From a virus: a DNA stretch of 34,844 nucleotides. The position numbers and the translations under genes are program-made. Of this stretch, positions 1 to 34,844 are shown piece by piece. The stretch lies in IMG/VR virus record IMGVR_UViG_3300035044_000024, positions 1-34,844 of that record; one strand, written 5' to 3'. The notes under the pieces are model-generated. The model had not been told where the DNA came from. It was given only the letters and a program-made list of their open reading frames with translations, and made no database searches. Within the stretch, counting starts at the first letter, position 1. Every line of letters begins with the position of its first letter.

Positions 1-2
1 AG

Positions 3-791
3 CATGTCAATCTCGGTTCCTGTACACTCGACAATCTACAAGAGGCTTTCGTTACAGGTATGTCCGAGTTGTGCGATCTCCATGGGAGGACAGGTGTTGG
101 AGAATCTGGAGAATACCTTACCCCAGAAGTTGACAGACAAGTGGGGCTTGGAGTGCTCGGTCTTGCAAACTTCCTCAGAAGATACAACATCACGTACGAG
201 AAATTCGGAGAGGCACTCCGCTTGGTAAACCTTGGCCACTCCGCAAGTGACGAAGCAGGCATCGCCGCTTGGGCGTTAAACAATGCGATCTTCGAGGCAG
301 CTCAGATTGCAAGAGAAAACAATATGGTAAGGGCGTTCGCTATTGCACCCACTGCCAGTTGCAGCTATCGCAGTAGAGACCTAGACGGCTTTACATGCAC
401 ACCCGAGATAGCACCACCAATAGCAAAGATGGTTGACAGAGACTCTGGCGAGTTCGGAGTAGAAAGAGTCAACTATGGAAACGTTGAGATTGCAAGTGAA
501 GTAGGATGGGACGCATATAAGCGTGTAGCAGACGAAATCATGACCATGCTCGATAGGACAGGATTGCTTCATGGCTACAGCTTCAACAGCTGGAGCGACA
601 TGATTAGATATGATGAAGCTTTTATAGAGGAGTGGCTACATAGTCCACAGACCTCTTTGTACTATTCATTACAAGTTATGGGTGATGTCCAAGATAAGTC
701 TGACGCTTATGCAGCACTTGGAGATACTGACATACAGGATTATTTGGATGGTATTCTTGATAACAAAATCGAATGTGACTGCCAACAATGA
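3..791 (+). CDS. Ribonucleotide reductase large (catalytic) subunit, C-terminal part, 5' truncated by window
   Basis: Reduces ribonucleotides to deoxyribonucleotides for phage DNA synthesis. The frame is open from base 3. The Asn-Leu-Gly-Ser stretch at 9-20 is the segment that follows the catalytic NxCxE loop in class I and II enzymes, so that loop lies just outside the window. The segment AIAPTASCSY matches the RNR phosphate-binding region. Near the C-terminus, SLYYS (Tyr-Tyr at 660-665) matches the class I radical-transfer dyad seen as TLYYQ in E. coli NrdA. The tail ends in Cys-Asp-Cys-Gln-Gln, a candidate redox pair with unusually close spacing. Some cyanopodovirus RNRs (P-SSP7) have been reassigned to class II; here the Tyr dyad and the adjacent beta-like gene favour class I, but class is not proven from this fragment. 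The stop overlaps the next start (ATGA). Confidence 0.9.
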   Translation, partial: HVNLGSCTLDNLQEAFVTGMSELCDLHGRTGVGESGEYLTPEVDRQVGLGVLGLANFLRRYNITYEKFGEALRLVNLGHSASDEAGIAAWALNNAIFEAAQIARENNMVRAFAIAPTASCSYRSRDLDGFTCTPEIAPPIAKMVDRDSGEFGVERVNYGNVEIASEVGWDAYKRVADEIMTMLDRTGLLHGYSFNSWSDMIRYDEAFIEEWLHSPQTSLYYSLQVMGDVQDKSDAYAALGDTDIQDYLDGILDNKIECDCQQ

Positions 792-1501
792 ACCCTTATA
801 CAAAATTATTAGAAAGAAAAAGAACATGGACTCCCGTAAAACCCACCAAAGGGGAGGTAAGATCTGGTGCTGAAGAAACCATCAAGCGTGCTCTCGCAAT
901 ACGTCATATGGAGCTACCAGTTGGAGAATTTATTTCACAAGGCTTGGACAAAGAAGTCCCGGAAGCAGCGAGGACACTTCTTGAGTCAAACGTTAAAGAT
1001 GAGATCAAGCATGATCTCGCTCTGGGTTTCATTGTTGAATCCCATGGGTCTGATCCGATTGCTGAAATGGAGGCGATAAGATTAAGAGATGCTTGGATAC
1101 AACATCCTGACCACACTATACTCAAAGCACTCGTTGCAGAGCGAGCTATATTCTTTGTTCTATTACCTATGTTTCGCTTTCTTGGTGATGCTGCTCTTAG
1201 AACAGTATCAGCTGATATTTCCAGAGATGAACAAATACACGTTGCGACTAATAGTCTCGTATGTCGTGAGCTGGGTCTTGTTCCTAGCAATTCTTTGGAT
1301 AAGCTTCGGAAAGCAACTATCGCATGGGTACTAAACCCCTTAAAAACTTCACCGGATAAATATTTAGACAAAACATTTTGGCTGGATGCGAGCGACCGGC
1401 TGATGTATGAAGGCAAAGCACCACAGTTTGCCGACACAAAAGCAGCTCGCATGCCAGCGTTCTTTGAACATGCAAATACAAACCTCCCCCAATACGCTTA
1501 A
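788..1501 (+). CDS. Compact ferritin-like diiron protein, probable RNR small (beta) subunit without radical tyrosine
   Basis: This 237-residue protein starts inside the stop codon of the RNR large-subunit gene, so the two are translationally coupled. The expected carboxylate/histidine metal set is visible: E42, E72-x2-H75, E118 and E148-x2-H151. The spacing E42-E72 (30) and E118-E148 (30) resembles class I beta subunits, but the middle segment is about 43 residues shorter than in E. coli NrdB. The residue seven after the first ExxH glutamate, where E. coli has radical Tyr122, is Leu79. Glu instead of Asp at the first ligand plus loss of Tyr recalls class Ic/Id beta subunits that use Mn-containing cofactors. 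The RNR role is inferred from the neighbour and ligand pattern. A different ferritin-like oxidase is possible. Confidence 0.75.
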   Translation: MNPYTKLLERKRTWTPVKPTKGEVRSGAEETIKRALAIRHMELPVGEFISQGLDKEVPEAARTLLESNVKDEIKHDLALGFIVESHGSDPIAEMEAIRLRDAWIQHPDHTILKALVAERAIFFVLLPMFRFLGDAALRTVSADISRDEQIHVATNSLVCRELGLVPSNSLDKLRKATIAWVLNPLKTSPDKYLDKTFWLDASDRLMYEGKAPQFADTKAARMPAFFEHANTNLPQYA

Positions 1502-1655
1502 CTTTCATTCAGAAAAACTTAAGACGTTAGTAGAGGATTTGGAATCCAAGTTCGCTTGGTATCCTGTCCACCCCAAGGAGGACTTAGCCTCCATTATGTA
1601 TCGCTCCGGACAATGGGAAGTGGTACAATATATTAAATCTATACTAGAAGAATAA
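1470..1655 (+). CDS. Small conserved phage protein upstream of gp7.3-like gene
   Basis: This is a 61-residue acidic protein from the ATG at 1470. An upstream in-frame ATG at 1407 would add 21 residues lying entirely within the previous gene, so the downstream start is preferred. The core pattern FAWYPVHPKEDLASIMYRSGQW followed by a hydrophobic helix resembles small proteins found just before the virion genes of T7-like phages that also contain 'hPvDP..' and 'IMYRaGQ..V...' segments. No enzymatic motif is visible. The function is unknown. Confidence 0.7.
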   Translation: MQIQTSPNTLNFHSEKLKTLVEDLESKFAWYPVHPKEDLASIMYRSGQWEVVQYIKSILEE

Positions 1656-1656
1656 C

Positions 1657-1926
1657 ATGTGTGTATTCGGAGGTGGCCGTAGGTCAACACCCCTACCCGG
1701 GCCACAACAAACATTTCAGCCTAAAGTTCAACAACAAAAACAAGAAGCTGTAAAACCAGAAAAGAAAGAACTTCTTGATCCAGATGATACTGCTGAAGTA
1801 CAGTATGGCTCAGGACAGAAGAAGAGCAGCCCCGGTGCTGGTAAGAAAACCGGAACAGATGCACTAAAGATCAACGTCAATACAGGCGGTGGCGGTGGTG
1901 CTGGTACAGGAGGACTAAATGTCTAA
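1657..1926 (+). CDS. T7 gp7.3-like virion/assembly protein
   Basis: This 89-residue, low-complexity protein sits immediately before the portal gene, exactly where T7 gene 7.3 lies. It starts MCVFGGG and has a Pro/Gln/Lys-rich middle. It ends in a glycine run finishing GGLNV, which parallels the T7 gp7.3 ending GGGINI. A 'DPDDTAEVQYG' segment is a conserved-looking core. T7 gp7.3 is a minor virion protein needed for adsorption and tail function. The assignment rests on position, size and C-terminal similarity, not on extended identity. It overlaps the portal start by 8 bases. Confidence 0.65.
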   Translation: MCVFGGGRRSTPLPGPQQTFQPKVQQQKQEAVKPEKKELLDPDDTAEVQYGSGQKKSSPGAGKKTGTDALKINVNTGGGGGAGTGGLNV

Positions 1927-3529
1927 AGCTAGAGAACGCTACAGTCAGTTAGAGTCAGGTAGAACACAGTTCCTTGACGTGGCTGTAGAAGCCTCTGAGC
2001 TTACCTTACCATACCTTGTAACTCGTGATGATAATTACAAAGGTAAAAGAACTTTACTACAGCCCTTCCAATCAGTCGGAGCTAAAGCTGTAGTTACGTT
2101 GTCAGCAAAGCTAATGTTAGCAATGCTACCACCACAGACAGCCTTCTTCAAACTACAGATCAGAGATGATAAGATAGGTGAAGAGATAGACCCGCAGACT
2201 AGAAGTGAGTTAGATCTATCATTCTCAAAGATAGAACGAAACATCATGGAGTACATAGCTGCATCAAGTGACAGAGTGGTTGTCCATCAAGCACTGAAGC
2301 ATTTGATAGTCTCAGGTAATGCTCTTATCTTCATGTCCAAAGATGGCTTGAAGCACTACCCTTTGAACAGGTTTGTAGTCAACAGAGATGGTAATGGTAA
2401 CGTCTTAGAGATAGTTACAAAAGAAATGATTGATAGAAAAGTACTTGGTCTTGAGCGTCAAGTACCGTCGAAGGAAGCAAACGGCGACTATAGCTCAGAT
2501 GAAGACGACGCAGAGGTATACACCTACGTACGATTGGATGAAGGTAGTGGACGCTGGCTATGGCATCAGGAAGTCGATGGACAAGTACTTCCCGGGTCAC
2601 GCAGTACAGCTCCCAAGAACGCTTCACCTTGGTTGGTGCTTCGATTTAACACTGTCGATGGTGAAGACTATGGACGAGGTAGAGTAGAGGAGTTTATTGG
2701 GGATCTAAGGAGTCTCAATGGATTGGCTCAAGCTCTAGTAGAAGGTGCTAGTGTAGCAAGTAAAGTTATCTTTCTTGTCTCACCATCAGCTACAACCAAA
2801 CCCGGAACACTAGCCAAGGCAGGCAATGGAGCTATCATACAAGGTAGGCCAGAGGACGTAGGAGTAGTGCAAGTAGGTAAGACGGCTGACTTTGCGACAG
2901 CTGCTAACTTGTCTACACAAATAGAAAAAAGAATACTAGAAGCTTTCTTGGTTATGAACGTCAGGCAGGCAGAGCGTGTTACAGCTGAAGAGGTACGCCT
3001 AACTCAGCTAGAACTAGAGCAATCCCTTGGAGGACTGTTCTCTCTACTGACGGTTGAGTTCCTGATACCATACTTGAACAGGATACTTCTAGTCATGCAA
3101 AGAGGAAATCAAATACCTAGACTACCAAAAGACTTGGTAAGACCAAAGATCGTAGCTGGAGTCAATGCTCTAGGTAGAGGTCAGGATCAACAGGCACTAA
3201 CACAGTTCATCGGAACTATAGCTCAGACTCTGGGGCCAGAAGCTCTACAGAGATTCATAGATCCTACCGAAGCTATCAAGAGATTAGCAGCTGCACAAGG
3301 TATTGATGTACTCAACTTAGTCAAGTCTCCAGAAACTATGGAGTCTGAGATGCAACAGCAGCAAGCTATGGCAACTCAGCAACAGCTACTAGGACAAGCT
3401 GGACAACTAGCAAGCTCACCTCTCATGGATCCAAGTAAGAACCCAGAGGGTGTACAACAGCTAGGAGAGAATCTAGGACTAGGAGCAGCAACAGAAAACT
3501 TTGGAGAAACAACATCACCACCAGAATAA
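1919..3529 (+). CDS. Portal (head-tail connector) protein, T7 gp8 family
   Basis: This 536-residue protein matches the T7 gp8 family length (536 in T7). It forms the dodecameric ring at the packaging vertex through which DNA enters and leaves. Seen in the sequence: an N-terminal helix followed by 'ASELTLPYL' as in T7-like portals, a central wing region ending in VVQVGKTADFATA, the helical stretch 'ERVTAEEVRLTQLELEQSLGGLFSLL' typical of portals (given here only to mark the stem helix), and a Gln-rich C-terminal tail (residues about 480-515). It lies between the gp7.3-like gene and the scaffold gene, as in T7, and its stop TAA abuts the scaffold ATG directly. Confidence 0.96.
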   Translation: MSKARERYSQLESGRTQFLDVAVEASELTLPYLVTRDDNYKGKRTLLQPFQSVGAKAVVTLSAKLMLAMLPPQTAFFKLQIRDDKIGEEIDPQTRSELDLSFSKIERNIMEYIAASSDRVVVHQALKHLIVSGNALIFMSKDGLKHYPLNRFVVNRDGNGNVLEIVTKEMIDRKVLGLERQVPSKEANGDYSSDEDDAEVYTYVRLDEGSGRWLWHQEVDGQVLPGSRSTAPKNASPWLVLRFNTVDGEDYGRGRVEEFIGDLRSLNGLAQALVEGASVASKVIFLVSPSATTKPGTLAKAGNGAIIQGRPEDVGVVQVGKTADFATAANLSTQIEKRILEAFLVMNVRQAERVTAEEVRLTQLELEQSLGGLFSLLTVEFLIPYLNRILLVMQRGNQIPRLPKDLVRPKIVAGVNALGRGQDQQALTQFIGTIAQTLGPEALQRFIDPTEAIKRLAAAQGIDVLNLVKSPETMESEMQQQQAMATQQQLLGQAGQLASSPLMDPSKNPEGVQQLGENLGLGAATENFGETTSPPE

Positions 3530-4330
3530 ATGGCAGAAACATTATCATACCAACCAGAAACAACCACTGAAACCATAGCTACAAGCTTAACACCAGAAGA
3601 GCAAGAGAATCTTGAGATTGGTGAAAAGCTGCAAGGAGATCAGGAAGCGTTACTGGCTGGTAAATATAAAGATGCAGCAGAGCTTGAGAAGGCTTACATA
3701 GAGTTGCAGAAAAAGTTAGGAGAAAACGGAGAGGAGGGAGAAGTACAACAAGAGTCAGCTGATGAGGAGCCGGAGGAGACTACGCTCTCTGACGGTGCTT
3801 CTTTAATTACATCAGCTAACGATGAGTTCTATGCCAATGACGGCAAGCTCTCAGAAGAGACTCTTGAGAAGTTCTCCTCTATGTCTAGCAAAGAGCTAGT
3901 CGAAGCATACTTAGAAGTACAAGGTACACCTGAGTTTCAAGCCCGGTCGTCAGACACGACTGATCTTTCAGATGCAGAAATCAACCAAGTTAAAAACTCA
4001 GTTGGTGGAGAGCAGGCTTATTCCAACATCATAGGTTGGGCACAAGATAATCTAGATGCACAAGCACAAGAAGCTTTCGATAGCATCGTAGCTACAGGAA
4101 GTGTGCAGGCTATCAACATAGCTGTTGCAGGCTTGAAGTCACAGTACGAAGCAGCTAATGGATTTGAAGGAAAAATGTACACAGGTAAACCACCAAAAAC
4201 AGGCGGCGATGTCTTCCGCAGTCAGCAAGAGTTAGTCAGAGCAATGAGTGATCCTCGTTATGACAATGACCCTGCTTACAGACAAGACATAATTGAAAAA
4301 CTAGATCGTTCAAACAACTTGGAGTTTTAA
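3530..4330 (+). CDS. Capsid assembly scaffold protein, T7 gp9-like
   Basis: This 266-residue, very acidic protein is mainly helical with coiled-coil-like N-terminal segments (EEQENLEIGEKL; AELEKAYIELQKKLGE). The C-terminal part carries 'GFEGKMYTGKPPKTGGDVFRSQQE', a pattern shared with T7-like scaffolds, followed by a short basic/amphipathic end that probably binds the capsid protein. T7 gp9 (about 307 residues) guides procapsid assembly and is then released. The position directly after the portal supports the call. Confidence 0.92.
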   Translation: MAETLSYQPETTTETIATSLTPEEQENLEIGEKLQGDQEALLAGKYKDAAELEKAYIELQKKLGENGEEGEVQQESADEEPEETTLSDGASLITSANDEFYANDGKLSEETLEKFSSMSSKELVEAYLEVQGTPEFQARSSDTTDLSDAEINQVKNSVGGEQAYSNIIGWAQDNLDAQAQEAFDSIVATGSVQAINIAVAGLKSQYEAANGFEGKMYTGKPPKTGGDVFRSQQELVRAMSDPRYDNDPAYRQDIIEKLDRSNNLEF

Positions 4331-4332
4331 CC

Positions 4333-4458
4333 ATGCCCGGACATTACGGAAAATCAATGCCAGCTAAAGGCAAAATGACACCAGCCATGAAGAAAAAGTT
4401 GGCTCTTGAAAAACTAAAAAAAGCTAACAAAAAGAAAGGAGTTAAATCCAGAAGATAA
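4333..4458 (+). CDS. Tiny basic protein (41 aa)
   Basis: The ORF starts two bases after the scaffold stop, begins MPGHYGKSMPAKGK and is rich in Lys (KKAN KKKG), ending KSRR. The TAA overlaps the ATG of the next gene by one base (TAATG), the same join used along this cassette. No known domain is recognised. A high positive charge and coupling to virion genes suggest a nucleic-acid- or capsid-associated role, but this is inference. Confidence 0.7.
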   Translation: MPGHYGKSMPAKGKMTPAMKKKLALEKLKKANKKKGVKSRR

Positions 4459-4688
4459 TGGCTAGAAAGATAAAGCCGGGAAAAGGTGGATCTCCCGGCC
4501 AGCCTTACCAAGCACCAAAAGAAGATCCCAAAAATCCATACGTGCCAGCTCCACGACTGGCAAAAGGTAAGAGTGTATTCTCTACTCCTTACCTTGATGA
4601 TCTAAGAAACATCAACAAGTTTAAACAAAATGCCGACAAGGTATTCAAGAGAAATAAAAAAGCATCAAATAATGTAAACGAAGCATGA
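4458..4688 (+). CDS. Small basic protein (76 aa)
   Basis: This is a Lys/Pro-rich protein beginning MARKIKPGKGG, with a 'PYVPAPRLAKGKSVFSTPYLDDL' core and a basic C-terminal half. It is unrecognised. Its start overlaps the preceding stop (TAATG) and its stop TGA overlaps the ATG of hli, so expression is likely coupled along the cassette. Confidence 0.75.
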   Translation: MARKIKPGKGGSPGQPYQAPKEDPKNPYVPAPRLAKGKSVFSTPYLDDLRNINKFKQNADKVFKRNKKASNNVNEA

Positions 4689-4819
4689 CACACCACAACC
4701 ACGAAAATCAGAAATGGCATCCAGCAGAGGAGCTTAACGGAAGACTAGCTATGATAGGCATAGTCGCAGCTCTACTCAACTACGCTTGGACAGGGCAAAT
4801 CATACCCGGTATTTGGTAA
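4685..4819 (+). CDS. hli: High-light-inducible protein (Hli/SCP, chlorophyll-binding one-helix protein)
   Basis: This 44-residue protein is shorter than usual ORF cut-offs. The signature is clear: a hydrophilic N-terminus with His/Asn, then the single transmembrane helix with ELNGRLAMIGIVAALLNYAW, followed by TGQIIPGIW. ExxGRxAMxG is the chlorophyll-binding Hli motif (Glu/Asn ligands and Arg ion pair), and TGQxxPG is the usual tail in cyanobacterial and cyanophage Hlips. In infected cells Hlips act at the thylakoid membrane to protect photosystem components and dissipate excess excitation. Placement between scaffold and capsid is in keeping with cyanopodoviruses, which carry host-derived photosynthesis genes near the structural block. 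No psbA is seen beside it. It is coupled on both sides (ATGA before, TAATG after). Confidence 0.93.
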   Translation: MTHHNHENQKWHPAEELNGRLAMIGIVAALLNYAWTGQIIPGIW

Positions 4820-4974
4820 TGCCTAAGCCAGCTGGTAAGAAGAAGTACTCTGCCGGTCAAATGAAGATCGCCAGAGTAGCACCACCCCGAGATAAAATCA
4901 CAGGAGCAGACTTCGCAAAACTAAGAAAAAATGGCAAGAAAAAAGGGAGTAAGCCTGTCTCTCGGAAGAGGTGA
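4819..4974 (+). CDS. Small basic protein (51 aa)
   Basis: The ATG at 4819 overlaps the hli stop (TAATG) and gives 51 residues beginning MPKPAGKKKYSAGQMKIARVAPP and ending KGSKPVSRKR. A longer in-frame start at 4786 would lie within hli and is not preferred. The 'AGKKKYSAGQMKIARVAPPRDKITGADFAKL' type of sequence is common among small cyanophage proteins. The function is unknown. The C-terminal 44 bases overlap the next ORF. Confidence 0.75.
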   Translation: MPKPAGKKKYSAGQMKIARVAPPRDKITGADFAKLRKNGKKKGSKPVSRKR

Positions 4975-5179
4975 GAAGAGCCGCAAAGGCGGCCTGACAG
5001 CTAAAGGTAGAGCCAAGTACAATCGTGCCACTGGCTCTAATCTCAAAGCTCCACAGCCCGGAGGAGGGGCTAGAAAGAGGTCATTTTGTGCTCGCATGTC
5101 TGGCATGAAAGGCCCGCTCAAAAAACCAAACGGCAAGCCCACAAGAAAGGCACTTGCCTTACGCAGATGGAAATGCTAA
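4931..5179 (+). CDS. Conserved cyanophage small basic protein (82 aa)
   Basis: The sequence MARKKGVSLSLGRGEKSRKGGLTAKG... and the tail FCARMSGMKGPLKKPNGKPTRKALALRRWKC are a pattern I recognise as a widespread domain-of-unknown-function family in cyanophages and other aquatic phages (I believe it corresponds to a DUF6321-type entry, number not verified). It has two Cys (FCAR and the terminal RWKC) and a net strongly positive charge. No catalytic role is known. It overlaps the previous gene by 44 bases and the next by one base. Confidence 0.85.
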   Translation: MARKKGVSLSLGRGEKSRKGGLTAKGRAKYNRATGSNLKAPQPGGGARKRSFCARMSGMKGPLKKPNGKPTRKALALRRWKC

Positions 5180-5382
5180 TGGCTAAAACATACGACGAAA
5201 AAGGAAGGATGACTCGCACTATTAGCGAGAGAAAAAGACTTGCACAGCTTGGCCCTGACTACGAAATAGAGAGGGATATACTAGAAGCTAGGCAGAACAA
5301 AAAAGCCAGAGAAGATGCCGGTAGAGATATGTTAATGGATGAGATCTTTAATCGAAAGAAAAAGAAAAAAGGTAAAGCATAA
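5179..5382 (+). CDS. Small basic protein (67 aa)
   Basis: The ATG at 5179 overlaps the preceding TAA (TAATG). An upstream in-frame ATG at 5086 would extend 31 codons inside the previous gene and is disfavoured. The protein is helical and charged (ISERKRLAQLGPDYEIERDILEARQNKKAREDAG) and ends in a Lys run KKKKKGKA. The function is unknown. It probably belongs to the same coupled cassette of small basic proteins. Confidence 0.75.
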   Translation: MAKTYDEKGRMTRTISERKRLAQLGPDYEIERDILEARQNKKAREDAGRDMLMDEIFNRKKKKKGKA

Positions 5383-5573
5383 TGGCAATCACTTATTCAG
5401 AAGACGGATCTAAAAAGGTTCGCAAAGGTAACAAGAAGGCTATCGCTCTCAACGATGGCCCAAGCACACCTATCAAGTACGATCCCGGCATGCGTAAATA
5501 CATGCCAAACTTAGGTGCTGGTAGAGTTAATGATGATAAAATTAGATCAAAAATTAAAATCCCAAGAGCATAA
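5382..5573 (+). CDS. Small basic protein (63 aa)
   Basis: The protein begins MAITYSEDGSKKVRKGNKK and ends KIRSKIKIPRA. It is joined by one-base TAATG overlaps on both sides. No family is recognised. The repeated use of MA- starts after TAATG in this cluster argues that it is a real translated gene rather than a chance frame. Confidence 0.7.
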   Translation: MAITYSEDGSKKVRKGNKKAIALNDGPSTPIKYDPGMRKYMPNLGAGRVNDDKIRSKIKIPRA

Positions 5574-5629
5574 TGGCACACAAGAAAGGATCAAAATGTG
5601 GCTGCAAGCATGGAGGTAAGAAACGCTGA
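5573..5629 (+). CDS. Micro-ORF, 18-aa Cys/Lys-rich peptide
   Basis: The frame reads MAHKKGSKCGCKHGGKKR then TGA. It starts in the TAATG overlap with the previous gene and its TGA overlaps the next ATG (TGATG), so it bridges two well-supported genes without leaving a gap. The Cys-Gly-Cys-Lys-His core could bind a metal. It is too short to recognise a family. The support is the join pattern and absence of any other use of these 57 bases. Confidence 0.55.
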   Translation: MAHKKGSKCGCKHGGKKR

Positions 5630-5793
5630 TGGGTAAGTTATGTCCACGTGGTAAAGCAGCTGCCAAAAGAAAATTCAAAGTATACCCTTCTGCATACGCT
5701 AACGCCTATGGTGTCAAAGTATGTAAGGGTCAAGTCAAAGCTGGTGGTAAGAAGAAGACTGCCCCCGGTTATAGCAAAGCAAAAAGAAGATGA
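5629..5793 (+). CDS. Conserved small basic phage protein, 'KLCPRGKAAAKRKFKVYPSAYANAY' type (54 aa)
   Basis: The 54-residue protein MGKLCPRGKAAAKRK... followed by FKVYPSAYANAYGVKVCKG is a strongly conserved sequence type seen in many marine phages, annotated only as a domain of unknown function. It contains two Cys and ends in GYSKAKRR. It is start-coupled by TGATG and stop-coupled by ATGA. It is missed by gene callers with a 60-residue cut-off. Confidence 0.85.
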   Translation: MGKLCPRGKAAAKRKFKVYPSAYANAYGVKVCKGQVKAGGKKKTAPGYSKAKRR

Positions 5794-6047
5794 GCTTACG
5801 TAGATGGTTCCAAGAGAAATGGGTTGACACCAAAACTGGTAAGCCCTGTGGCAGACAGAAAGGTGAGAAGCGTAAAGGCTACCCAGCTTGCAGACCATCT
5901 AGACGTGTGTCATCTAAAACACCAAAGACTACAGGTGAAATGTCTAAAGGCGAGAAGGCCAAGTTCAATAGAACAAAGACAAGTAGTAAGAGGATTAATT
6001 ATAATCACAAAAGACGGAAGAAACTGTCCGTCCGTTCATCCCGATAG
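5790..6047 (+). CDS. Conserved small basic phage protein, 'SLRRWFQEKWVD' type (85 aa)
   Basis: This 85-residue protein begins MSLRRWFQEKWVDTKTGKPCGRQKGEKRKGYPACRPSRRVS. The pattern W(F)xEKWVD...PCGR...YPxC.P is a recognised family of uncharacterised phage and bacterial small proteins. It has two Cys in a CGR...YPAC arrangement and very high Lys/Arg content. It is the last gene of the basic cassette, and a non-chained region with RNA-like structure follows it. The overlapping frame 5824-6057 looks like a shadow. Confidence 0.85.
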   Translation: MSLRRWFQEKWVDTKTGKPCGRQKGEKRKGYPACRPSRRVSSKTPKTTGEMSKGEKAKFNRTKTSSKRINYNHKRRKKLSVRSSR

Positions 6048-6060
6048 GGACGCATGACAC

Positions 6061-6082
6061 CCAAGCATGGAACGGGGCTTGG
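6061..6082 (+). other. Stem-loop before mini-ORF
   Basis: CCAAGC (6061-6066) pairs with GCTTGG (6077-6082) around a 10-base loop. It lies just upstream of the ribosome-binding site of the next mini-ORF and could influence its translation. It might be a processing or weak termination element. Only the pairing is seen; the role is unknown. Confidence 0.4.
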
Positions 6083-6098
6083 ATATATGGAGATTACC

Positions 6099-6152
6099 AT
6101 GACTGTAACATTCGTATATCGTGGCATCAAGTACACAAGAGTAATCGGTTAA
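6099..6152 (+). CDS. Mini-ORF, 17-aa peptide resembling the cyanobacterial YRGxxY (DUF4278-like) core
   Basis: GGAG at 6089-6092, spaced 6 bases from the ATG at 6099, gives the peptide MTVTFVYRGIKYTRVIG. This matches the core of a small cyanobacterial domain with the pattern 'LTYRGVxY' (DUF4278-like, by memory). An in-frame upstream ATG at 6054 would give 33 residues, but the ribosome-binding site points to 6099. The peptide is shorter than normal family members, so it may be a reduced copy, a remnant, or a regulatory leader before the capsid gene. Confidence 0.5.
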   Translation: MTVTFVYRGIKYTRVIG

Positions 6153-6232
6153 GGCCGTACAGGGAGGTTCAAGTCCTCCCATCTCTATTGGAGAGAGCCC
6201 AGTACGCTGGATACCTTGATCCGTCTAGACGG
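6146..6232 (+). ncRNA. Structured region with tRNA T-arm-like hairpin, upstream of capsid gene
   Basis: Four hairpins follow each other. They are CGG/CCG at 6146-6157 (loop TTAAGG), GGAGG-TTCAAGT-CCTCC at 6163-6179, TCTCT/AGAGA at 6182-6196, and CCAG-TACG-CTGG at 6199-6210. A perfect palindrome, CCGTCTAGACGG, follows at 6221-6232. The second is a textbook tRNA T-arm (5-bp stem, TTCAAGT loop), and the preceding GTAATCGGTTAAGGCC looks like a D-arm, but no anticodon arm lies between them. This may be a tRNA-derived relic or a structured leader/processing element for capsid mRNA. It is not a standard tRNA. Confidence 0.45.
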
Positions 6233-6303
6233 TGGGATAGACCACAAAAAAAGGCCAAAAAAATTTCAGATCTGAGAAACGTAAACCAATATCATTCTTA
6301 GAA

Positions 6304-7488
6304 ATGGCACAACAAAATAGCACACTGACCACTAATATAACAAGTCCCGGTCAGTCAAACTCAACTGGAGACAAGAGGGCACTATACCTTAAATTGTTTT
6401 CCGGAGAGATGTTCAAAGGCTTCCAAAGGAACACGATAGCACGTGACCTAATTATGAAGAGAACACTTACAAACGGTAAGTCACTTCAGTTCATCTTCAC
6501 AGGAAGAACAACAGCCGAGTATCATACACCCGGCAACAGCATACTAGGTAACTCTGATGGAGCACCTCCAGTAGCTGAAAAGACAGTGACTGTTGATGAT
6601 CTATTAATCTCCAGTGCATTTGTCTATGAACTTGACGAGACACTTGCTCACTACGATTTACGTGGTGAAATTTCTCGTAAGATCGGATACGCTCTTGCAG
6701 AGCAGTATGACAGAAAAGCTTTCAGAGCTATCACAAAGGCTGCAAGACAAGCTTCACCAATCACGAAGTCTAACTTCAAAGAGCCCGGTGGAACACAGAT
6801 TAGACTAACCAGAACAGGTGTTACCGATGGTACAGCTGCTTATGACTCTACATGTCTAATCAACGGATTCTACGACGCAGCCGCTGCGCTAGATGAGAAG
6901 GGAGTAGGTCAAGAAGGAAGAGTAGCTGTACTCAACCCAAGACAGTACTACGAACTTATCCAGAACGTAGAATCAAACGGTTTAATCAACCGTACAGAGA
7001 GAGGAGATGCGTTACAATCAGGTAACGGAATCATTGAAATAGCTGGAATCCAGATATTCAAGTCAATGAACATCCCATTCTTTGGCAGATTCGGTACTAA
7101 GTTTGGTACTGCATCTAACACAAACCCCGGTGTTACAGACCCCGGAGCAGGCGGTGACTTCGTAGAAGTTGCTATGGCTGATGAGACTGCTGGTTCATCT
7201 GCAACTAAGACTGTTAACTCTTATGGTAACGGTGGATCTGCATTTGAAAACAGCTGTGGACTTATCTTCCAAAAAGAAGCTGCTGCTTGTGTTGAGGCAA
7301 TCGGCCCACAAGTTCAGACAACAAGTGGAGACATCTCAGTGGTATACCAAGGTGATGTTATTCTTGGACGTCTAGCTATGGGTGTAGATGCACTTAACCC
7401 TGCTGCTGCTGTTGAGTTCGTAGCTGGTGTGGCAACAAGCCGCAACGCTGCTGGCGAAGCAACAACTGTTGGAAACGCTGCTTTCTAA
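6304..7488 (+). CDS. Major capsid protein, T7 gp10A family
   Basis: This 394-residue protein is close to T7 gp10A (345) with an extended C-terminal region. The N-terminal arm is followed by the highly conserved 'LYLKLFSGEMFKGFQ', 'NGKSLQFIFTGRTTAEYHTPG' and 'DDLLISSAFVYELDETLAHY' segments, then 'RGEISRKIGYALAEQYDRKAF' (HK97-fold E-loop and spine). It forms the icosahedral shell. No Shine-Dalgarno is evident immediately before the ATG, and the ~250 bases upstream are structured rather than gene-coupled. A strong terminator follows, as after T7 gene 10, suggesting a separate high-level transcript. Confidence 0.97.
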   Translation: MAQQNSTLTTNITSPGQSNSTGDKRALYLKLFSGEMFKGFQRNTIARDLIMKRTLTNGKSLQFIFTGRTTAEYHTPGNSILGNSDGAPPVAEKTVTVDDLLISSAFVYELDETLAHYDLRGEISRKIGYALAEQYDRKAFRAITKAARQASPITKSNFKEPGGTQIRLTRTGVTDGTAAYDSTCLINGFYDAAAALDEKGVGQEGRVAVLNPRQYYELIQNVESNGLINRTERGDALQSGNGIIEIAGIQIFKSMNIPFFGRFGTKFGTASNTNPGVTDPGAGGDFVEVAMADETAGSSATKTVNSYGNGGSAFENSCGLIFQKEAAACVEAIGPQVQTTSGDISVVYQGDVILGRLAMGVDALNPAAAVEFVAGVATSRNAAGEATTVGNAAF

Positions 7489-25001: not shown

Positions 25002-25236
25002 GTACTACAAGAAAAATCCAAAGGCTGCTGCAAAACGACGTAAACAGCAGCGTAAGTACAACAAAACTAAGAAAGGTCTAGAGATTAGAGTCAATGCAAA
25101 CAAACTTAATAGAAAACTTGGTACATATGGAAACCGTGACGGTCTGGATGCCGCCCATTATAAGGGTAGCAAAACCAAAGGCAGACTGCAAAAAGCATCT
25201 ATTAACAGAAGAAGTAGACTTAAAATTAAAAAATGA
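24985..25236 (+). CDS. Conserved small basic cyanophage protein (83 aa)
   Basis: MAKTSKYYKKNPKAAAKRRK followed by 'KYNKTKKGLEIRVNANKLNRKLGTYGNRDGLDAAHYKG' and an Arg/Lys-rich end matches a small protein family frequent in cyanophages. It is highly basic, with an N-rich middle and an 'AHYKG' segment, and likely binds nucleic acid. Its place between small terminase and HNH genes suggests a packaging or genome-end role, which is an inference. Confidence 0.82.
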   Translation: MAKTSKYYKKNPKAAAKRRKQQRKYNKTKKGLEIRVNANKLNRKLGTYGNRDGLDAAHYKGSKTKGRLQKASINRRSRLKIKK

Positions 25237-25559
25237 CCCCATTACTACCAACACCTGATTACTATTTACACAACTTAATAACCATGACGAGTTCAGAATC
25301 TAAAAGGCTCTGGAGAAGAGCTATTAAAGAGCACTTTAATTGTCAATGCGTTTATTGTGGAGGAACTTATGAATTACAACAACTCACCATCGACCATGTA
25401 CGCCCTAAATGTAAAGGGGGTAGGGATGAAACGGCGAATGTCGTACCGTCTTGTCGACGATGCAATCAGGAAAAAGGTAGTAGAGATTGGTTGGACTGGA
25501 TGAGGTCGACATTCGGCATAACAGATAGAGAACAAACCATTTTATCACATATAAGATGA
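25233..25559 (+). CDS. HNH endonuclease (108 aa)
   Basis: The motif set is complete: a Cys pair in CQCVYCGG, 'LTIDHVRPKCKGG' with the DH of the HNH core, then 'NVVPSCRRCNQEKGSRDW', giving a second zinc-binding Cys pair and Asn/His residues. An internal ATG at 25284 (MTSSESKRLWRR) is an alternative start. HNH proteins beside terminases often assist DNA cleavage during packaging; a free-standing homing enzyme is the alternative. It is coupled by overlaps on both sides, so it behaves as a resident gene rather than an insertion. Confidence 0.93.
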   Translation: MTPLLPTPDYYLHNLITMTSSESKRLWRRAIKEHFNCQCVYCGGTYELQQLTIDHVRPKCKGGRDETANVVPSCRRCNQEKGSRDWLDWMRSTFGITDREQTILSHIR

Positions 25560-27608: not shown

Positions 27609-29345
27609 ATGGAAAATTCCCTAGTTTTACTACAGCAAGACTTCAAGCTCTTCCTACAGGCATTGTGGGCAGAGCTGGGCTTGCCTAGTCCTACGAGGGC
27701 ACAGTACGCTATTGCGGACTACCTACAGAACGGCCCGAAGCGTTTGCAAGTGCAGGCGTTTCGTGGTGTAGGTAAGTCGTGGATTACTGGTGCGTTCGTA
27801 TTATGGACACTATTTAACGACCCAGAAAGAAAGGTCATGATAATCTCTGCATCAAAAGAACGTGCAGACAACATGTCTATCTTTTTACAGAAACTCATCA
27901 TAGACACACCTTGGTTAAGCCACCTCCAACCTAAGTCGGACGACAGCAGATGGTCAAGGATAAGCTTTGATGTTAACTGTAGCCCACACCAAGCACCATC
28001 AGTCAAATCAGTTGGTATCACCGGACAGCTAACAGGATCTCGTGCAGACCTGATGATTCTTGATGACGTAGAAGTACCCGGTAATTCACTTACGGAGTTC
28101 ATGCGTGAAAAACTCTTACAACTCTGCACCGAAGCAGAATCAATCCTTACGCCGAAAAACGATAGCCGTATTATGTATCTCGGGACTCCTCAGACTACTT
28201 TTACTATTTATCGTCGCTTGGCAGAGCGGAACTATCGTCCCATGGTTTGGCCAGCAAGATACCCAAGAGCAGACAAACTCAACAAGTATGGAGAAGTTTT
28301 AGCACAGGATATACTTGAAGACATCGAACAGGGTGTCGAAGAATGGACACCTACAGATGATAGGTTTACAGATGAAGACCTAGTAGAAAGAGAAGCATCT
28401 ATGGGTCGTAGTAACTTTATGCTTCAGTTCCAATTAGACACAACACTATCAGATGCACAAAAGTTCCCCCTTAAAATGGCTGATCTCATTGTCACTAGCG
28501 TTAATCCTACTACTGCACCCGAAGATATCATATGGTGCTCAGATCCTAGTAAAGTCATACGAGATGCCCCAACAGTCGGCCTCCCGGGTGATTACTTTTA
28601 CTCTCCGATGCAACTCGTGGGAGAATGGAGCGACTATGATGAAACGATTTGCAGTGTTGACCCAAGCGGTCGTGGAACGGATGAAACGGCTGCCGCCTTC
28701 CTCTCTCAACGAAATGGACTTATCTATCTGCATGAAATGTCAGCCTACAGAGACGGGTACTCGGATAGTACCTTGCTCGACATCCTCAGACGATGCAGAA
28801 AGTATGGAGTCACAAGCTTGGTTATTGAAACAAACTTTGGAGATGGCATCGTAGGTGAACTATTTAAAAAACACCTAATAAACACAAGACAACACATAAA
28901 TATCGAAGAGGTACGTGCAAATGTTCGGAAAGAAGACAGAATTATCGACTCACTTGAGCCTGTTCTTAATCAGCATCGTCTTATTGTCGACCGTAATATC
29001 ATTGATTGGGATTATGCGTCCAACAAAGACAGTCCAGCTGAAGAAAGGCTCCTCTATATGCTATTTTATCAGATGAGTCGTATGTGTAGAGAAAAAAGGG
29101 CTGTAAAACACGACGATAGACTAGATTGTCTAGCTCAAGGCGTAAAATACTTTACAGATGCCCTATCTATCTCTGCACAAGACCAAATAGTGACTAGAAA
29201 ACGTGAAGAATGGGATAATATGCTTGCAGAGTTCTTAGATGACCCAGAAGCTAGTGCAAATCACATGGTTTTAGGCATGAATCTAGAGCAGCGTAACGAA
29301 GCTAGGGGTCTTGGTAACGACAACCATGGCTATAACTGGCGTTAG
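27609..29345 (+). CDS. terL: Large terminase (DNA maturase B), T7 gp19 family
   Basis: The 578 residues match T7 gp19 (586). The ATPase half has a Walker A-like FRGVGKSW (residues 51-58), 'MIISASKERADNMS', and Walker B LMILDD (148-153) followed by EVPGNS; 'LGTPQT' is motif III. The nuclease half has CSVDPSGRGTDET (D351), VIETNFGDG (E407) and KHDDRLDCLAQ (D502/D503), the RNase H-type acidic triad. It pumps DNA into the capsid and cuts concatemers. It is the last late gene, followed by paired hairpins. Confidence 0.97.
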   Translation: MENSLVLLQQDFKLFLQALWAELGLPSPTRAQYAIADYLQNGPKRLQVQAFRGVGKSWITGAFVLWTLFNDPERKVMIISASKERADNMSIFLQKLIIDTPWLSHLQPKSDDSRWSRISFDVNCSPHQAPSVKSVGITGQLTGSRADLMILDDVEVPGNSLTEFMREKLLQLCTEAESILTPKNDSRIMYLGTPQTTFTIYRRLAERNYRPMVWPARYPRADKLNKYGEVLAQDILEDIEQGVEEWTPTDDRFTDEDLVEREASMGRSNFMLQFQLDTTLSDAQKFPLKMADLIVTSVNPTTAPEDIIWCSDPSKVIRDAPTVGLPGDYFYSPMQLVGEWSDYDETICSVDPSGRGTDETAAAFLSQRNGLIYLHEMSAYRDGYSDSTLLDILRRCRKYGVTSLVIETNFGDGIVGELFKKHLINTRQHINIEEVRANVRKEDRIIDSLEPVLNQHRLIVDRNIIDWDYASNKDSPAEERLLYMLFYQMSRMCREKRAVKHDDRLDCLAQGVKYFTDALSISAQDQIVTRKREEWDNMLAEFLDDPEASANHMVLGMNLEQRNEARGLGNDNHGYNWR

Positions 29346-30832: not shown

Positions 30833-31101
30833 CCTTTGGCCGCAACATCAAGGACGGCACGGACTACGTATCAGACCTTGACTGGGAGATGTACTGCACG
30901 GAGGTGCTTGACTCACACTTTGATGGCTACATGGTCACAGACGCAAACGGATGTTGGAAGTCTGAACATGAGCTGACAAAGCAAGTCTCAATCGAGACAG
31001 ATGACAGACAAGCTATCGAGGACGTAGTACAGCTATACAAAGACCTATTCCAACAGGACGCAGTTGGACTATACATCACACCATCAATGGAGTTTATTTA
31101 A
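30817..31101 (+). CDS. Early protein of unknown function (94 aa)
   Basis: GAGGACG precedes the ATG at 30817. The sequence opens 'LHHLTFGRNIKDGTDYVSDLDW' and has 'LDSHFDGYMVTDANGCWKSEHE' and 'VSIETDDRQAIEDVVQLYKDLFQQDAVGLYIT', an alpha/beta layout like small phage proteins that begin with 'FGRN' and contain 'FDGYTVT'. I recognise the sequence type from other cyanophages but not a function. Confidence 0.75.
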   Translation: MLHHLTFGRNIKDGTDYVSDLDWEMYCTEVLDSHFDGYMVTDANGCWKSEHELTKQVSIETDDRQAIEDVVQLYKDLFQQDAVGLYITPSMEFI

Positions 31102-31102
31102 C

Positions 31103-31534: not shown

Positions 31535-31752
31535 TGTACTACGAGTTCCCAACATACATAGATGACAAGGGCATGATACCAGTGCTACTTGACCATGACT
31601 GGATGTGCTACACCAATGGCACATGGACGAACTGTCCTTATCCAATATACAAAGCGTTGTCCAAGCAGTTCAGACACAACGGCAACGCCAAGGAATTATC
31701 CAGATTTCCTAACAAAAGGTTGAAAAGAAATATATCCTCGACTATAATATAG
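31534..31752 (+). CDS. Small early protein (72 aa)
   Basis: MYYEFPTYIDDKGMIPVLLD, with 'HDWMCYTNGTWTNCPYPIYKALSKQFRHNG', has two nearby Cys and many aromatic residues. The 3' end encodes the basic tail KRLKRNISSTII, and those same bases carry the -35/-10 promoter for the next gene, so the end of this gene is constrained by, or a by-product of, the promoter. The function is unknown. Confidence 0.68.
   Translation: MYYEFPTYIDDKGMIPVLLDHDWMCYTNGTWTNCPYPIYKALSKQFRHNGNAKELSRFPNKRLKRNISSTII
31720..31748 (+). promoter_or_regulatory. Sigma70-type promoter TTGAAA-N17-TATAAT
   Basis: TTGAAA at 31720-31725 and TATAAT at 31743-31748 are separated by 17 bases, one mismatch from consensus. Transcription should start at about 31754-31756, on top of the ATG at 31755, so the next gene's mRNA would be leaderless or nearly so. 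Confidence 0.8.
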
Positions 31753-31754
31753 AT

Positions 31755-32636: not shown

Positions 32637-32648
32637 TCGGAGATAACT

Positions 32649-33134
32649 ATGCCAAACCATTGCCACAACAGGGTCACGTTCTACGCTAGCCCTGAGCATA
32701 ACGATCAGATTGCTAAGATCAAGCAGATGTTCTTAGATGAGAATATCTTTGGTCAGATCATACCAGAACCAGATTGGCTCAACACACCACTCATGTCTAG
32801 CGATATGCCCAAGTACGATTGGGATAAACCACTGGGCAAGGTTGGCGAGTTACCAATGGACGTTCAAGGAGACTACGGCATATCACGTAGATTCCAGTCA
32901 ACAGGTAAGGCTGACGACAGGTGGTATGACTGGCGTGTACAGAACTGGGATACCAAGTGGGACGCATACGACGTAGTAGTCACAGATGATGACCCAGATT
33001 GTACAGAGATTGAGTTCAATACAGCATGGTCGCCACCCGAAGCCATATGTTCTGCACTCAGAGATCAATATCCTGACGTGGACATCTCGTGGTTCTACGA
33101 CGAGCCCGGCTGTGAGATAGCGGGGTACTTGTAA
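32649..33134 (+). CDS. Api92-like/DUF1281 ferredoxin-fold family protein (161 aa)
   Basis: The start MPNHCHNRVTFYA and the central 'WYDWRVQNWDTKWDAYDV', 'IEFNTAWSPPEAICSAL' and 'VDISWFYDEPGCEIAGYL' are the hallmark segments of the Api92-like (YubB/DUF1281) family found on phages and plasmids. The fold is ferredoxin-like; the function is not established. GGAGATAA lies just before the ATG. Its TAA overlaps the next ATG. Confidence 0.87.
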   Translation: MPNHCHNRVTFYASPEHNDQIAKIKQMFLDENIFGQIIPEPDWLNTPLMSSDMPKYDWDKPLGKVGELPMDVQGDYGISRRFQSTGKADDRWYDWRVQNWDTKWDAYDVVVTDDDPDCTEIEFNTAWSPPEAICSALRDQYPDVDISWFYDEPGCEIAGYL

Positions 33135-33319
33135 TGACTAGAGTTATCAAGCCACTGTATATGCTCATCAAGGTTGACGTTGATGCTGACATTGTACACA
33201 ACCAAGCCAAGGCACACACCTACGCTATGAATCACTGTGATAAGCTCGAGTATGAGCTGGTCGATTATCATTACCCTACAAAGTACAGTGAACGAGAGCA
33301 CCCATTCATCAAACTATGA
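33134..33319 (+). CDS. Small early protein (61 aa)
   Basis: MTRVIKPLYMLIKVDVDADI and 'AKAHTYAMNHCDKLEYELVDYHYPTKYSEREHPFIKL'. It starts in a TAATG overlap and stops in an ATGA overlap, so both ends are coupled. A mixed alpha/beta pattern suggests a folded small protein. It is not recognised. Confidence 0.7.
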   Translation: MTRVIKPLYMLIKVDVDADIVHNQAKAHTYAMNHCDKLEYELVDYHYPTKYSEREHPFIKL

Positions 33320-33486
33320 AGAAATACATCAAACTATTGACAGTCATCACCAATTTGTTTATAATAGCTGGTGTAACAAGACATTGGATACGATATGACA
33401 ACACCGAATTGGCAGCACCACAGCCGCAAGCAGCCCAAGTACAAGAGCAAGCCCCGAATGGTGCAAGCTGCCCGAAAGCGTACTAA
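33316..33486 (+). CDS. Small protein with N-terminal membrane/signal segment (56 aa)
   Basis: ATG at 33316 overlaps the previous TGA. The frame reads MKKYIKLLTVITNLFIIAGV, a signal-anchor-like segment, then a Pro/Gln/Ala-rich tail ending GASCPKAY. A perfect consensus promoter lies within its coding sequence, and its last 92 bases overlap another ORF (33395-33529) in a different frame. Either this gene and the promoter coexist, or it is largely a by-product of the promoter. Confidence 0.55.
   Translation: MKKYIKLLTVITNLFIIAGVTRHWIRYDNTELAAPQPQAAQVQEQAPNGASCPKAY
33337..33365 (+). promoter_or_regulatory. Perfect consensus sigma70 promoter TTGACA-N17-TATAAT
   Basis: TTGACA at 33337-33342 and TATAAT at 33360-33365 with a 17-base spacer: no mismatch to the bacterial housekeeping consensus. 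The predicted start is about 33372. It would transcribe the ORFs at 33395, 33526, 33692 and 33984 and the RNA polymerase gene, making it the best candidate for the host-driven early promoter of phage RNA polymerase. Confidence 0.85.
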
Positions 33487-33529
33487 AATGCTCATCAAAA
33501 AGCTCACATCACAATCAACAAGGTCATGA
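33395..33529 (+). CDS. Small basic protein (44 aa) in alternate frame
   Basis: MTTPNWQHHSRKQPKYKSKP then RMVQAARKRTKMLIKKLTSQSTRS; it is strongly basic. It begins ~23 bases after the predicted transcription start of the consensus promoter, and its TGA overlaps the next gene's ATG (ATGA). The composition matches the other basic mini-proteins of this phage, so I consider it more protein-like than the overlapping 3' part of the 33316 ORF. Confidence 0.55.
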   Translation: MTTPNWQHHSRKQPKYKSKPRMVQAARKRTKMLIKKLTSQSTRS

Positions 33530-33744
33530 CCGATCACTACTACTATTACGAAGCTATCATGGGCACGGGTAAGAAGATCCACCTGTTTGCTCGTGACGAC
33601 ATAGAAGCTGCATACAGGGCTACACACATAGCCAAGTGGCACTGGAAAACCACCTTGACTGACATCTACCTAGATAAACACCATCATTACAATGAAGAAA
33701 GAATTTCCAAACAACTACAACATGATAAAGAACTGCCCAGCTGA
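33526..33744 (+). CDS. Small early protein (72 aa)
   Basis: MTDHYYYYEAIMGTGKKIHL, 'FARDDIEAAYRATHIAKWHWKTTLTDIYL' and a His/Gln/Lys tail. The 'GKKIHLFARDDIEAAYRATHIA' segment looks like a small alpha/beta unit that converts or senses, common as an anonymous ORF in phage early regions. It overlaps the next gene by 53 bases. Its function is unknown. Confidence 0.65.
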   Translation: MTDHYYYYEAIMGTGKKIHLFARDDIEAAYRATHIAKWHWKTTLTDIYLDKHHHYNEERISKQLQHDKELPS

Positions 33745-34021
33745 GTGGTTCGAGCCTATCGAGTTTGTTACTTTCATGCACTGGAAGATAGACGGCTGGG
33801 AGATGCCAACAGAGTATCACTGTATGATTCGTGCACGTAACCACAGAACCAACAAGGTCACAGAACACGTGTACAAGTCAGGTGCAGCTGCAAAGAAGAA
33901 GGTCAAAGAGTTGATCGCTGGTGCTGAGACAGAGTTTACTGTATGCACACACAACGATATACAACACTTGATACCACTTAAATATGTTACAGACAATGAC
34001 AAAGAGAACTATTCCGTCTGA
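33692..34021 (+). CDS. Early protein of unknown function (109 aa)
   Basis: MKKEFPNNYNMIKNCPAEWF, 'EPIEFVTFMHWKIDGWEMPTEYHCMIRARNHRTNKVTEHVYKSGAAAKKKVKEL' and 'EFTVCTHNDIQHL'. The middle part 'PxxxxCMIRAxNxxTxKVxEHVYKSxxAAxxxV' reads as a folded, conserved-type phage early protein. The internal ATG at 33722 (MIKNCPAEW) would remove most of the overlap with the previous ORF and is an alternative start. Confidence 0.72.
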   Translation: MKKEFPNNYNMIKNCPAEWFEPIEFVTFMHWKIDGWEMPTEYHCMIRARNHRTNKVTEHVYKSGAAAKKKVKELIAGAETEFTVCTHNDIQHLIPLKYVTDNDKENYSV

Positions 34022-34214
34022 TGACGTTTATACTTATTATAAACAGGCATTAGATATGTTACACAAAGACCATCCACATTACGAGGAGGTCAGACAACAC
34101 TTACTAGCACAGATACAAGATGAACTCGCAGACTCATATAACGGAAGACCAGATCACGGAACAGGTCAACTTAGAAAGATCACAGATCAAGCAGGGTCTA
34201 AAAAGACTGCGTGA
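33984..34214 (+). CDS. Small early protein overlapping RNA polymerase start (76 aa)
   Basis: In-frame starts are at 33984 and 33996 (MTKRTIPSDDVYTYYKQALD). The body 'ALDMLHKDHPHYEEVRQHLLAQIQDELADSYNG' is a helical acidic segment. The last 95 bases overlap the RNA polymerase gene in another frame, an unusually long overlap for this phage, so the C-terminal tail (RPDHGTGQLRKITDQAGSKKTA) may be under dual constraint, or the polymerase start may be later. Confidence 0.65.
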   Translation: MLQTMTKRTIPSDDVYTYYKQALDMLHKDHPHYEEVRQHLLAQIQDELADSYNGRPDHGTGQLRKITDQAGSKKTA

Positions 34215-34844
34215 CCAAACGTATAAGCTAGAAGCACAACAGTACTCTTCTGCAACAGTATATGGTATCGCTTCGATTGATGCGTTACTACCACGTGTAG
34301 TTCAACGTATCGAAGACACTAACAAGAAAATACATCAAGGCAAGTATGGAGCTGCCTTCAAGGATATACACGAATACCTAGCTAGTATCGAGGCACTGGC
34401 TGCCGCAGCTATCGCTTGTAAAGTTACATTCGATAACGTCTTTGGTTACAAGGACAACTGCAACACAGCTACCAACGTATGTAGTTCCATTGGCAAAGCT
34501 ATCGAGGATGAGTGTCAGATGCGACACTACGAGCATGCCGCCCCTGCTTTACTCAAGACTCTCAAGGACAACTACTGGCACAAAGCCTGTGGCACACAAC
34601 AGAAGCTAGTTGTCATCAGGACGCTGATGAACCGCTACAAGATTGAACAGTGGAGACCTTGGGGTACAAGTATACGTACCAAACTTGGTGGCTGGTTACT
34701 TGATTGCATTATGGCAGCAAGTGGCTGGTTCTACAAGCAACGCATACGCACAGGTCGTAAGACTCAAGTGTTTATTGCACCGACCGCAGAGTTCATGGAC
34801 ATCAAAGATGAAGTCATGGCAAATGCAGAATTATTCAGCCCTTT
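34120..34844 (+). CDS. T7-type single-subunit RNA polymerase, N-terminal part, 3' truncated by window
   Basis: ATG at 34120 opens a frame running off the window (about 241 residues): MNSQTHITEDQITEQVNLER... It continues with the N-terminal promoter-binding domain of T7-like polymerases, e.g. 'SSIGKAIEDECQM' matching T7 'SAIGRAIEDEARF', 'TLMNRYKIEQWRPWGTSIRTKLGGWLLDCIM' and 'TGRKTQVFIAPTAEFMDIKDEVMANAELF'. The catalytic palm lies beyond the edge. The enzyme transcribes middle and late phage genes. Being downstream of a perfect host promoter fits early expression. Confidence 0.95.
   Translation, partial: MNSQTHITEDQITEQVNLERSQIKQGLKRLRDQTYKLEAQQYSSATVYGIASIDALLPRVVQRIEDTNKKIHQGKYGAAFKDIHEYLASIEALAAAAIACKVTFDNVFGYKDNCNTATNVCSSIGKAIEDECQMRHYEHAAPALLKTLKDNYWHKACGTQQKLVVIRTLMNRYKIEQWRPWGTSIRTKLGGWLLDCIMAASGWFYKQRIRTGRKTQVFIAPTAEFMDIKDEVMANAELFSP

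Follow-up and report, generated by a model that had tools for sequence, protein, structure and literature searches.

Sixteen restriction-type patterns are absent from a cyanopodovirus genome fragment, probably through selection by many host type II systems

What removes every copy of two short words from the DNA of a phage while their close look-alikes stay common? This question is raised by the IMG/VR virus record IMGVR_UViG_3300035044_000024, a fragment of a marine T7-like cyanopodovirus, which was analysed here as a complete record of 34,844 bases (hereafter, the window; GC content 41.3%). CCAGG, CCTGG, GGACC and GGTCC were each counted zero times, and CCWGG and GGWCC are thus wholly absent from the window, as the initial annotation had claimed from reading it. 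The C/G-centred relatives, which it had described as common, were indeed found in numbers: CCCGG 34 times and CCGGG 13 times (47 CCSGG), and GGCCC 11 times and GGGCC 7 times (18 GGSCC).

None of the null models to which the counts were compared comes near to zero. The second-order Markov model expects 40.4 CCWGG and 29.0 GGWCC in the window, and the maximal-order model 34.9 and 22.9. The codon nulls were based on 1,000 shuffles of 9,708 codons from 26 chosen window open reading frames (ORFs). Simple shuffling gave 43.2 CCWGG (sd 4.3, minimum 29) and 21.4 GGWCC (sd 3.4, minimum 12), and shuffling with the following base kept gave 34.3 (minimum 23) and 18.6 (minimum 9), so that both sites lie far below composition- and codon-preserving expectations, the pattern of Type II site avoidance. 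Since the depletion is limited to the exact sites and the look-alikes are in surplus (CCSGG 47 against 9.9 expected, GGSCC 18 against 12.9), it is specific to the enzyme sites. CCSGG is a word that an enzyme for CCWGG would leave uncut. The forced codon choice at Pro-Gly and Gly-Pro was borne out as well: in the 26 ORFs all 35 Pro-Gly pairs use CCC or CCG, though CCA and CCT make up 292 of 376 Pro codons; each of the 14 Gly-Pro pairs likewise has GGC or GGG, though GGT and GGA account for 554 of 705 Gly codons.

To see how the sites were lost, 16 window ORFs were codon-aligned with 23 relatives that do not avoid them, and sites at identical residues were scored. The window kept none of the 106 aligned CCWGG pairs, which fall at 33 distinct window positions; 83 of the pairs were changed at the centre alone, always from W to S, and today an S stands at the centre of 14 of the 33 positions. 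Likewise, none of the 52 GGWCC pairs (17 positions) was kept, and 41 were changed at the centre alone (8 positions). Four control motifs were kept at considerable rates, CAWGG in 58/104 pairs, GCWGC in 55/139, CCWGA in 27/98 and CCWCA in 30/97, and the S-centred words were kept in 6 of 8 (CCSGG) and 2 of 8 (GGSCC) pairs. The selection is against the exact recognition word.

The initial account of the absences is correct but incomplete, because 14 more restriction-type patterns are also at zero: CTGCAG, GGYRCC, ATGCAT, ACTAGT, TGATCA, ATCGAT, TTCGAA, GAATTC, CCTAGG, AGGCCT, RGCGCY, CGCG, ACCTGC and GAATGC, some of which had a low expectation in the window (e.g., GAATTC 4.1 and TTCGAA 4.9). Sixteen patterns are therefore absent from the whole window (1-34844), and GCGC is present twice, against 21.7 expected. 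Other palindromes in the window's clade are near normal (AGCT 1.07, GANTC 1.18 and TCGA 0.88) or mildly low (GATC 0.72), so that the pattern is no general dislike of palindromes. Non-palindromic hexamers are depleted in the window too, namely ACCTGC (0) and GAATGC (0), the sites of BspMI and BsmI, as well as CCTGAA (1) and GCAGGA (1). Adjacent pairs of C5 methyltransferases were noticed in four Prochlorococcus stretches (L239, L240, L241 and L243) and could belong to a system with an asymmetric site.

The large terminase subunit (TerL, 27609-29345, plus strand) was used to find relatives and to build a tree, and the relatives comprise the best 80 of 598 TerL relatives in IMG/VR. CCWGG is at zero in 32 of these 80 (268 expected), which hold 207 CCSGG against 85 expected, while the other 48 are near normal (CCWGG 553/633, CCSGG 84/152, observed/expected here and below). 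This 80-locus count is the unselected tally, and groups A-E were picked after zero CCWGG had been seen. When mapped on the TerL tree, which has 87 rows, the zero label requires 5 changes, of which well supported branches force at least 4, against 27 for shuffled labels. Two of the changes come from L030, with 1 site, and the mosaic L027, with 14; both lie outside the zero groups, as do L020, L049, L072 and L079, which have no site. At least three zero lineages can be told apart: the large one that contains the window (12 + 15 rows, possibly of one origin), the clade L031/L040/L048/L054 and the clade of the Prochlorococcus isolate P-GSP1.

The five pooled groups, chosen for their zero counts, hold no CCWGG in 376,505 bases, where about 421 were expected; in the pools L004, L008, L009, L011 and L013 were swapped for their longer contigs, and the comparison group N consisted of 16 of the 48 loci with CCWGG. 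Among the pooled groups, zeroing of GGWCC is confined to the window's clade (1/73) and its sister group B (0/66). When 299 palindromic patterns were ranked in the pooled avoiders, CCWGG was the fifth lowest (1/487, a rank partly given by construction) and the HaeII site the eighth lowest (3/101), whereas CCSGG ranked 298th. Row L027 (1-5877) was considered as a true reversal of avoidance and rejected. All of its 14 CCWGG lie left of position 3,700 and CCSGG occurs only right of 4.1 kb; the right part shares 92% identity with the zero-site L020, with a junction near 3.7-4.1 kb inside TerL, and the row is a mosaic or an assembly chimera. An abrupt shift in site content, as seen there, can mark recombination.

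Isolates with recorded hosts showed which word is avoided in cultured phages. NATL1A-7, P-SSP2, P-SSP3, 9515-10a, SS120-1 and S-TIP37 were read over 30 kb each and P-HM2 over 40 kb. CCWGG is avoided by P-GSP1 (0/50.0), P-SSP3 (0/30.0) and P-SSP2 (1/34.8), and the same phages are rich in CCSGG (36/11.9, 27/7.7 and 25/11.2, respectively). In P-SSP7 (CCWGG 35/60.0, CCSGG 1/9.7) and 9515-10a (22/41.3 and 0/6.1), CCWGG stands at about half of expectation and CCSGG is avoided instead. CCSGG is low in NATL1A-7 (2/9.8) and normal in SS120-1 (6/6.7), the myovirus P-HM2 has 0/4.4 CCSGG and 23/53.6 CCWGG, and in S-RIP2, S-SBP1 and S-TIP37, which are Synechococcus phages, CCWGG is close to its expected number or higher, with CCSGG at 0.54-0.77. 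RGCGCY occurs 0-1 times in six of seven Prochlorococcus-type podovirus records, the exception being 9515-10a (3/5.5); in P-SSP7 it is at 0/12.0 while GCGC is normal (38/41.3). For P-SSP2 the record gives Synechococcus WH8017 as host, and for P-GSP1 it gives MED4, which the abstract of PMC3350473 also states as the host of P-SSP7. As P-GSP1 and P-SSP7 share MED4 and differ in the W/S choice, the recorded laboratory host does not set the pattern. The avoidance set of P-GSP1 (L083:1-44945) also differs from that of the window, with GGCC at 0/34.6 and GCSGC at 0 against 14 expected.

The best explanation, which we hold to be very probable, is that many host type II systems, each of them rare in the population, exert purifying selection. 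The phage lineage would repeatedly meet hosts with type II restriction-modification systems of differing specificity, and unmodified phage DNA carrying a target would be cut on entry, which would favour target-free genomes. In a very large phage population every copy could be purged, and where the protein must stay, the change would be a silent one from CCW-GGN to CCS-GGN or from GGW-CCN to GGS-CCN. The initial annotation had proposed selection by two such systems; type II selection is well supported, but two systems are too few for the many unrelated sites that are gone.

Candidate enzymes were sought in the genus of Prochlorococcus MIT 9201 (265-266 genomes). The psbA genes of group B and C records match Prochlorococcus best among the host genomes compared, a comparison biased by the host set having been drawn with group C psbA. 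C5 methyltransferases occur in 69 of 266 genomes, and 54 C5 methyltransferase ORFs that passed a motif filter, from 60 stretches covering part of the matches, fall into 18 groups. Of 422 host ORFs, 30 went as queries into the Pfam scan of neighbouring proteins (two of them repeats or overlaps within one family), and the scan will certainly have missed further enzymes. It returned matches to HaeII, the TdeIII type (GGNCC), NgoFVII, Alw26I, MmeI, marginally BglI, and the MvaI/BcnI nuclease family; the recognition sequences of the named enzymes were applied to homologues as predicted specificity. A candidate for CCWGG is the MvaI/BcnI-family (PF15515, E 5.7e-44) nuclease of genome G251 (L258), which adjoins a C5 methyltransferase. 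Its best PDB match is R.MvaI (E 3.9e-8, residues 161-273), the PD...EIK residues are kept, and CCWGG is its predicted specificity. The same methyltransferase family adjoins this MvaI-like nuclease in G251 and an EcoRII-like ORF in G202 (L257), for which no PDB match was found. A HaeII homologue (L218, E 1.4e-141), with RGCGCY as predicted site, is present in Prochlorococcus as well. If these proteins cut as predicted, they would restrict phages of this kind that bear the targets. NCBIfam gave no match for nine of ten host proteins.

In the family PF15515, MvaI cuts CCWGG and BcnI cuts CCSGG. While the L258 protein matches R.MvaI best, those of L276 and L277 match R.BcnI best; they lack the PD...EIK residues in a three-sequence alignment and may not cut, their cutting activity being doubtful. 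The BcnI-like proteins of G241 (L276:1468-2187, also L260:1-5282) and G248 (L277) adjoin, by eye, a helicase-like ORF, and the G241 locus also holds an ATPase-looking ORF (by eye) and a C5 methyltransferase; these loci are perhaps multi-gene defence systems rather than plain type II pairs. The Prochlorococcus MvaI-like nuclease differs from the known MvaI system in its neighbour, a C5 methyltransferase, as M.MvaI is an N4 enzyme. Different restriction systems lie between two genes, presumably aroQ-like and SIMPL-like as named from motifs, in L239, L256, L257 and L258; both markers are found in 4 of 60 stretches and at least one in 19 of 60, and restriction systems may be exchanged at this interval. 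In Prochlorococcus, HATPase_c_3 proteins were also seen immediately next to C5 methyltransferases (L220:5207-6634 and L264:2399-4006).

Several results weigh against selection by such enzymes. The MvaI/BcnI family was found in only 3 of 265 genomes, two of them nearest to BcnI at weak E-values, and EcoRII-C matches in 2 of 265 are marginal (29.0 and 25.8 bits, cut-off 25). In 24 further genomes, at least 5 of which were already in the searched genus, the MvaI/BcnI family gave no match, and neither did the controls. The EcoRII/AvaII-like genes that the initial annotation had suggested looking for in candidate hosts are present, by homology, for the CCWGG class (MvaI-like, with EcoRII-like marginal), but not clearly for the AvaII type: RE_SinI, the GGWCC family, had no match in 265 genomes, where its controls gave none either, and the GGNCC-type TdeIII family was found in 4 of 265, 2 of them above the cut-off. 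A PstI-family nuclease for CTGCAG was found in none of the 265 genomes. GTCTC and TCCRAC, the sites of the host nucleases Alw26I and MmeI, are not avoided by the phages; GGTCTC, whose enzyme shares the Pfam family of Alw26I, has low counts in groups A (10/33) and B (7/26) and, with few expected in single phages, stands at 0/7 in 9515-10a and 5/13 in P-SSP7. GGNCC as a whole is only partly low in phages, avoidance of GCSGC is confined to P-GSP1 (0/14) and perhaps group D (2/7), and the CCSGG expectations behind the W/S contrast are small in single Prochlorococcus phages (4 to 12). Self-avoidance of CCWGG by the carriers was rejected, as a hint near the restriction loci (20/50) was gone in larger samples (G251 79/77, G025 81/103, G241 110/99 and G202 55/63). 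In favour of selection, CCWGG stands at 0.78-1.14 of expectation in DNA sampled from nine host genomes, so that the phage pattern is not copied from host composition. Lastly, the pelagiphage HTVC011P, chosen as a negative control, has 0/30.2 CCWGG and 0/18.5 GGWCC, and avoidance alone is therefore no pointer to a cyanobacterial host. This SAR11 podovirus (L289:1-39000) also has no CTGCAG and no GAATTC, and ACCTGC is in surplus (46/18.3).

The control points to the rival that survives best, namely that marine T7-like phages have shown avoidance for long, and that it was shaped by past or non-cyanobacterial hosts rather than by present Prochlorococcus systems. Besides the two sites missing from HTVC011P, it is favoured by MED4 being the laboratory host of both P-GSP1 and P-SSP7, the latter with its 35 CCWGG. 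However, relatives with normal counts separate the zero lineages on the same tree, so the trait arose or was kept several times, and enzymes of predicted CCWGG and RGCGCY specificity do exist in Prochlorococcus. We consider this rival unlikely, though it deserves to be kept in mind.

A phage-encoded nuclease that cuts the sites in host DNA, with a phage free of them sparing itself, has a slim chance of being the cause. The window does encode an HNH endonuclease (25233-25559, plus strand), and part of the phage genome lies outside the window. Against this, HNH endonucleases are annotated both in the avoiders P-GSP1, P-SSP2 and P-SSP3 and in the CCWGG holders P-SSP7, S-RIP2, 9515-10a and SS120-1, and the HNH ORF therefore does not explain the absence; no other nuclease family was found in the subset of window ORFs scanned. 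The phage would need one nuclease for each of more than a dozen unrelated motifs, and the differing W/S choice of two phages grown on MED4 also speaks against it.

Still less probable is mutational erosion, in which Dcm-like host methylation of the second C would be followed by deamination to T. The C5 methyltransferases in 69 of 266 host genomes would provide for the first step. The mark of the second, C-to-T at position 2, was found in only 5 of the 106 lost CCWGG pairs, and G-to-A at position 4 in 5 of 106; as centre-only W-to-S change dominates (83 of 106), the loss went mainly by synonymous replacement and not by deamination, and an enzyme mutating the sites, which the initial annotation had allowed for, is disfavoured. 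Mutation pressure would moreover be expected to leave some sites, and the pooled zero groups, chosen for zero counts, keep none. Composition or codon bias alone is hardly conceivable as the cause, since, although AT-rich codons are preferred in the window, the codon and context shuffles give 34-43 CCWGG and 19-21 GGWCC and never fall below 23 and 9, the CCSGG surplus and normal near relatives contradict a composition bias, and the aligned-site replacements refute codon or dinucleotide bias as well.

Restriction-site avoidance by selection from host enzymes is a known mechanism. In a published survey (Rusinov 2018, PMC6286503), double-stranded DNA phages avoid and eliminate orthodox Type II sites and spare Type IIG sites, like TCCRAC here. 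What differs here is that many sites were lost together in one genome and its clade, and that the choice between W and S is lineage-specific; cyanophage, Prochlorococcus and Synechococcus do not appear as terms in the main text of that survey. Avoidance of CCWGG or GGWCC in cyanophages was not found in the titles and abstract starts of the open-access matches listed, subscription journals lying outside this scope. T7 is likewise a phage with few CCWGG sites and reportedly keeps two EcoRII/Dcm sites; it differs in this from the window and from the 32 of 80 relatives with zero. What is new is the extent of avoidance, the lineage-specific W/S contrast and candidate enzymes in hosts thought to be nearly restriction-free. 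Prochlorococcus genomes are described as typically carrying 0 to 1 restriction systems, with none in many (PMC8262939). Despite the few systems reported, the podoviruses look strongly selected by many restriction enzymes.

A wider reading, which we put forward tentatively and at somewhat less than even confidence, is that Prochlorococcus as a population maintains a large and shifting repertoire of type II systems, part of which is exchanged at the aroQ/SIMPL spot. Podovirus genomes would record that set, each lineage zeroing the sites of its hosts and toggling between CCWGG and CCSGG avoidance as MvaI and BcnI relatives swap. If this is true, the missing-motif list predicts enzymes yet to be found, for GGWCC, CTGCAG, ATGCAT, GAATTC, ACCTGC and GAATGC. 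Compiling such a list is an inexpensive and testable way to predict host enzymes, and perhaps host range, for uncultured marine phages.

The gene order of the window matches that of the cyanopodovirus P-SSP7, with ribonucleotide reductase, head and tail genes, TerL and RNA polymerase. The window holds the end of a ribonucleotide reductase followed by its beta subunit (beta-like ORF at 788-1501, plus strand, nearest to the cyanopodovirus records S-RIP2, KBS-P-1A and S-SBP1). The major capsid protein (6304-7488, plus strand), recognised by gene order against P-SSP7, was among the 16 ORFs of the replacement analysis. The contig ends within a T7-like RNA polymerase, of which it holds the start (34120-34842, plus strand; phrog_414, E 1.4e-35). 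A search of window bases 1-25,000 in the phage collection gave near DNA matches to seven cyanopodovirus records (P-GSP1, S-RIP2, KBS-P-1A and S-SBP1). No tRNA was found in the window. In relatives psbA lies between the scaffold and the capsid genes; the corresponding interval of the window (4331-6303) has no ORF of at least 150 aa and so no intact psbA, and L086 likewise has no annotated psbA between these genes. For this reason the host of the window is one that we infer, most likely Prochlorococcus. A 94-aa ORF at 30817-31101 matches DUF3574 and also phrog_2226; it scored 27.1 bits against the S-adenosylmethionine lyase family, just below the 28-bit cut-off, and its predicted product is possibly an anti-restriction protein that degrades S-adenosylmethionine.

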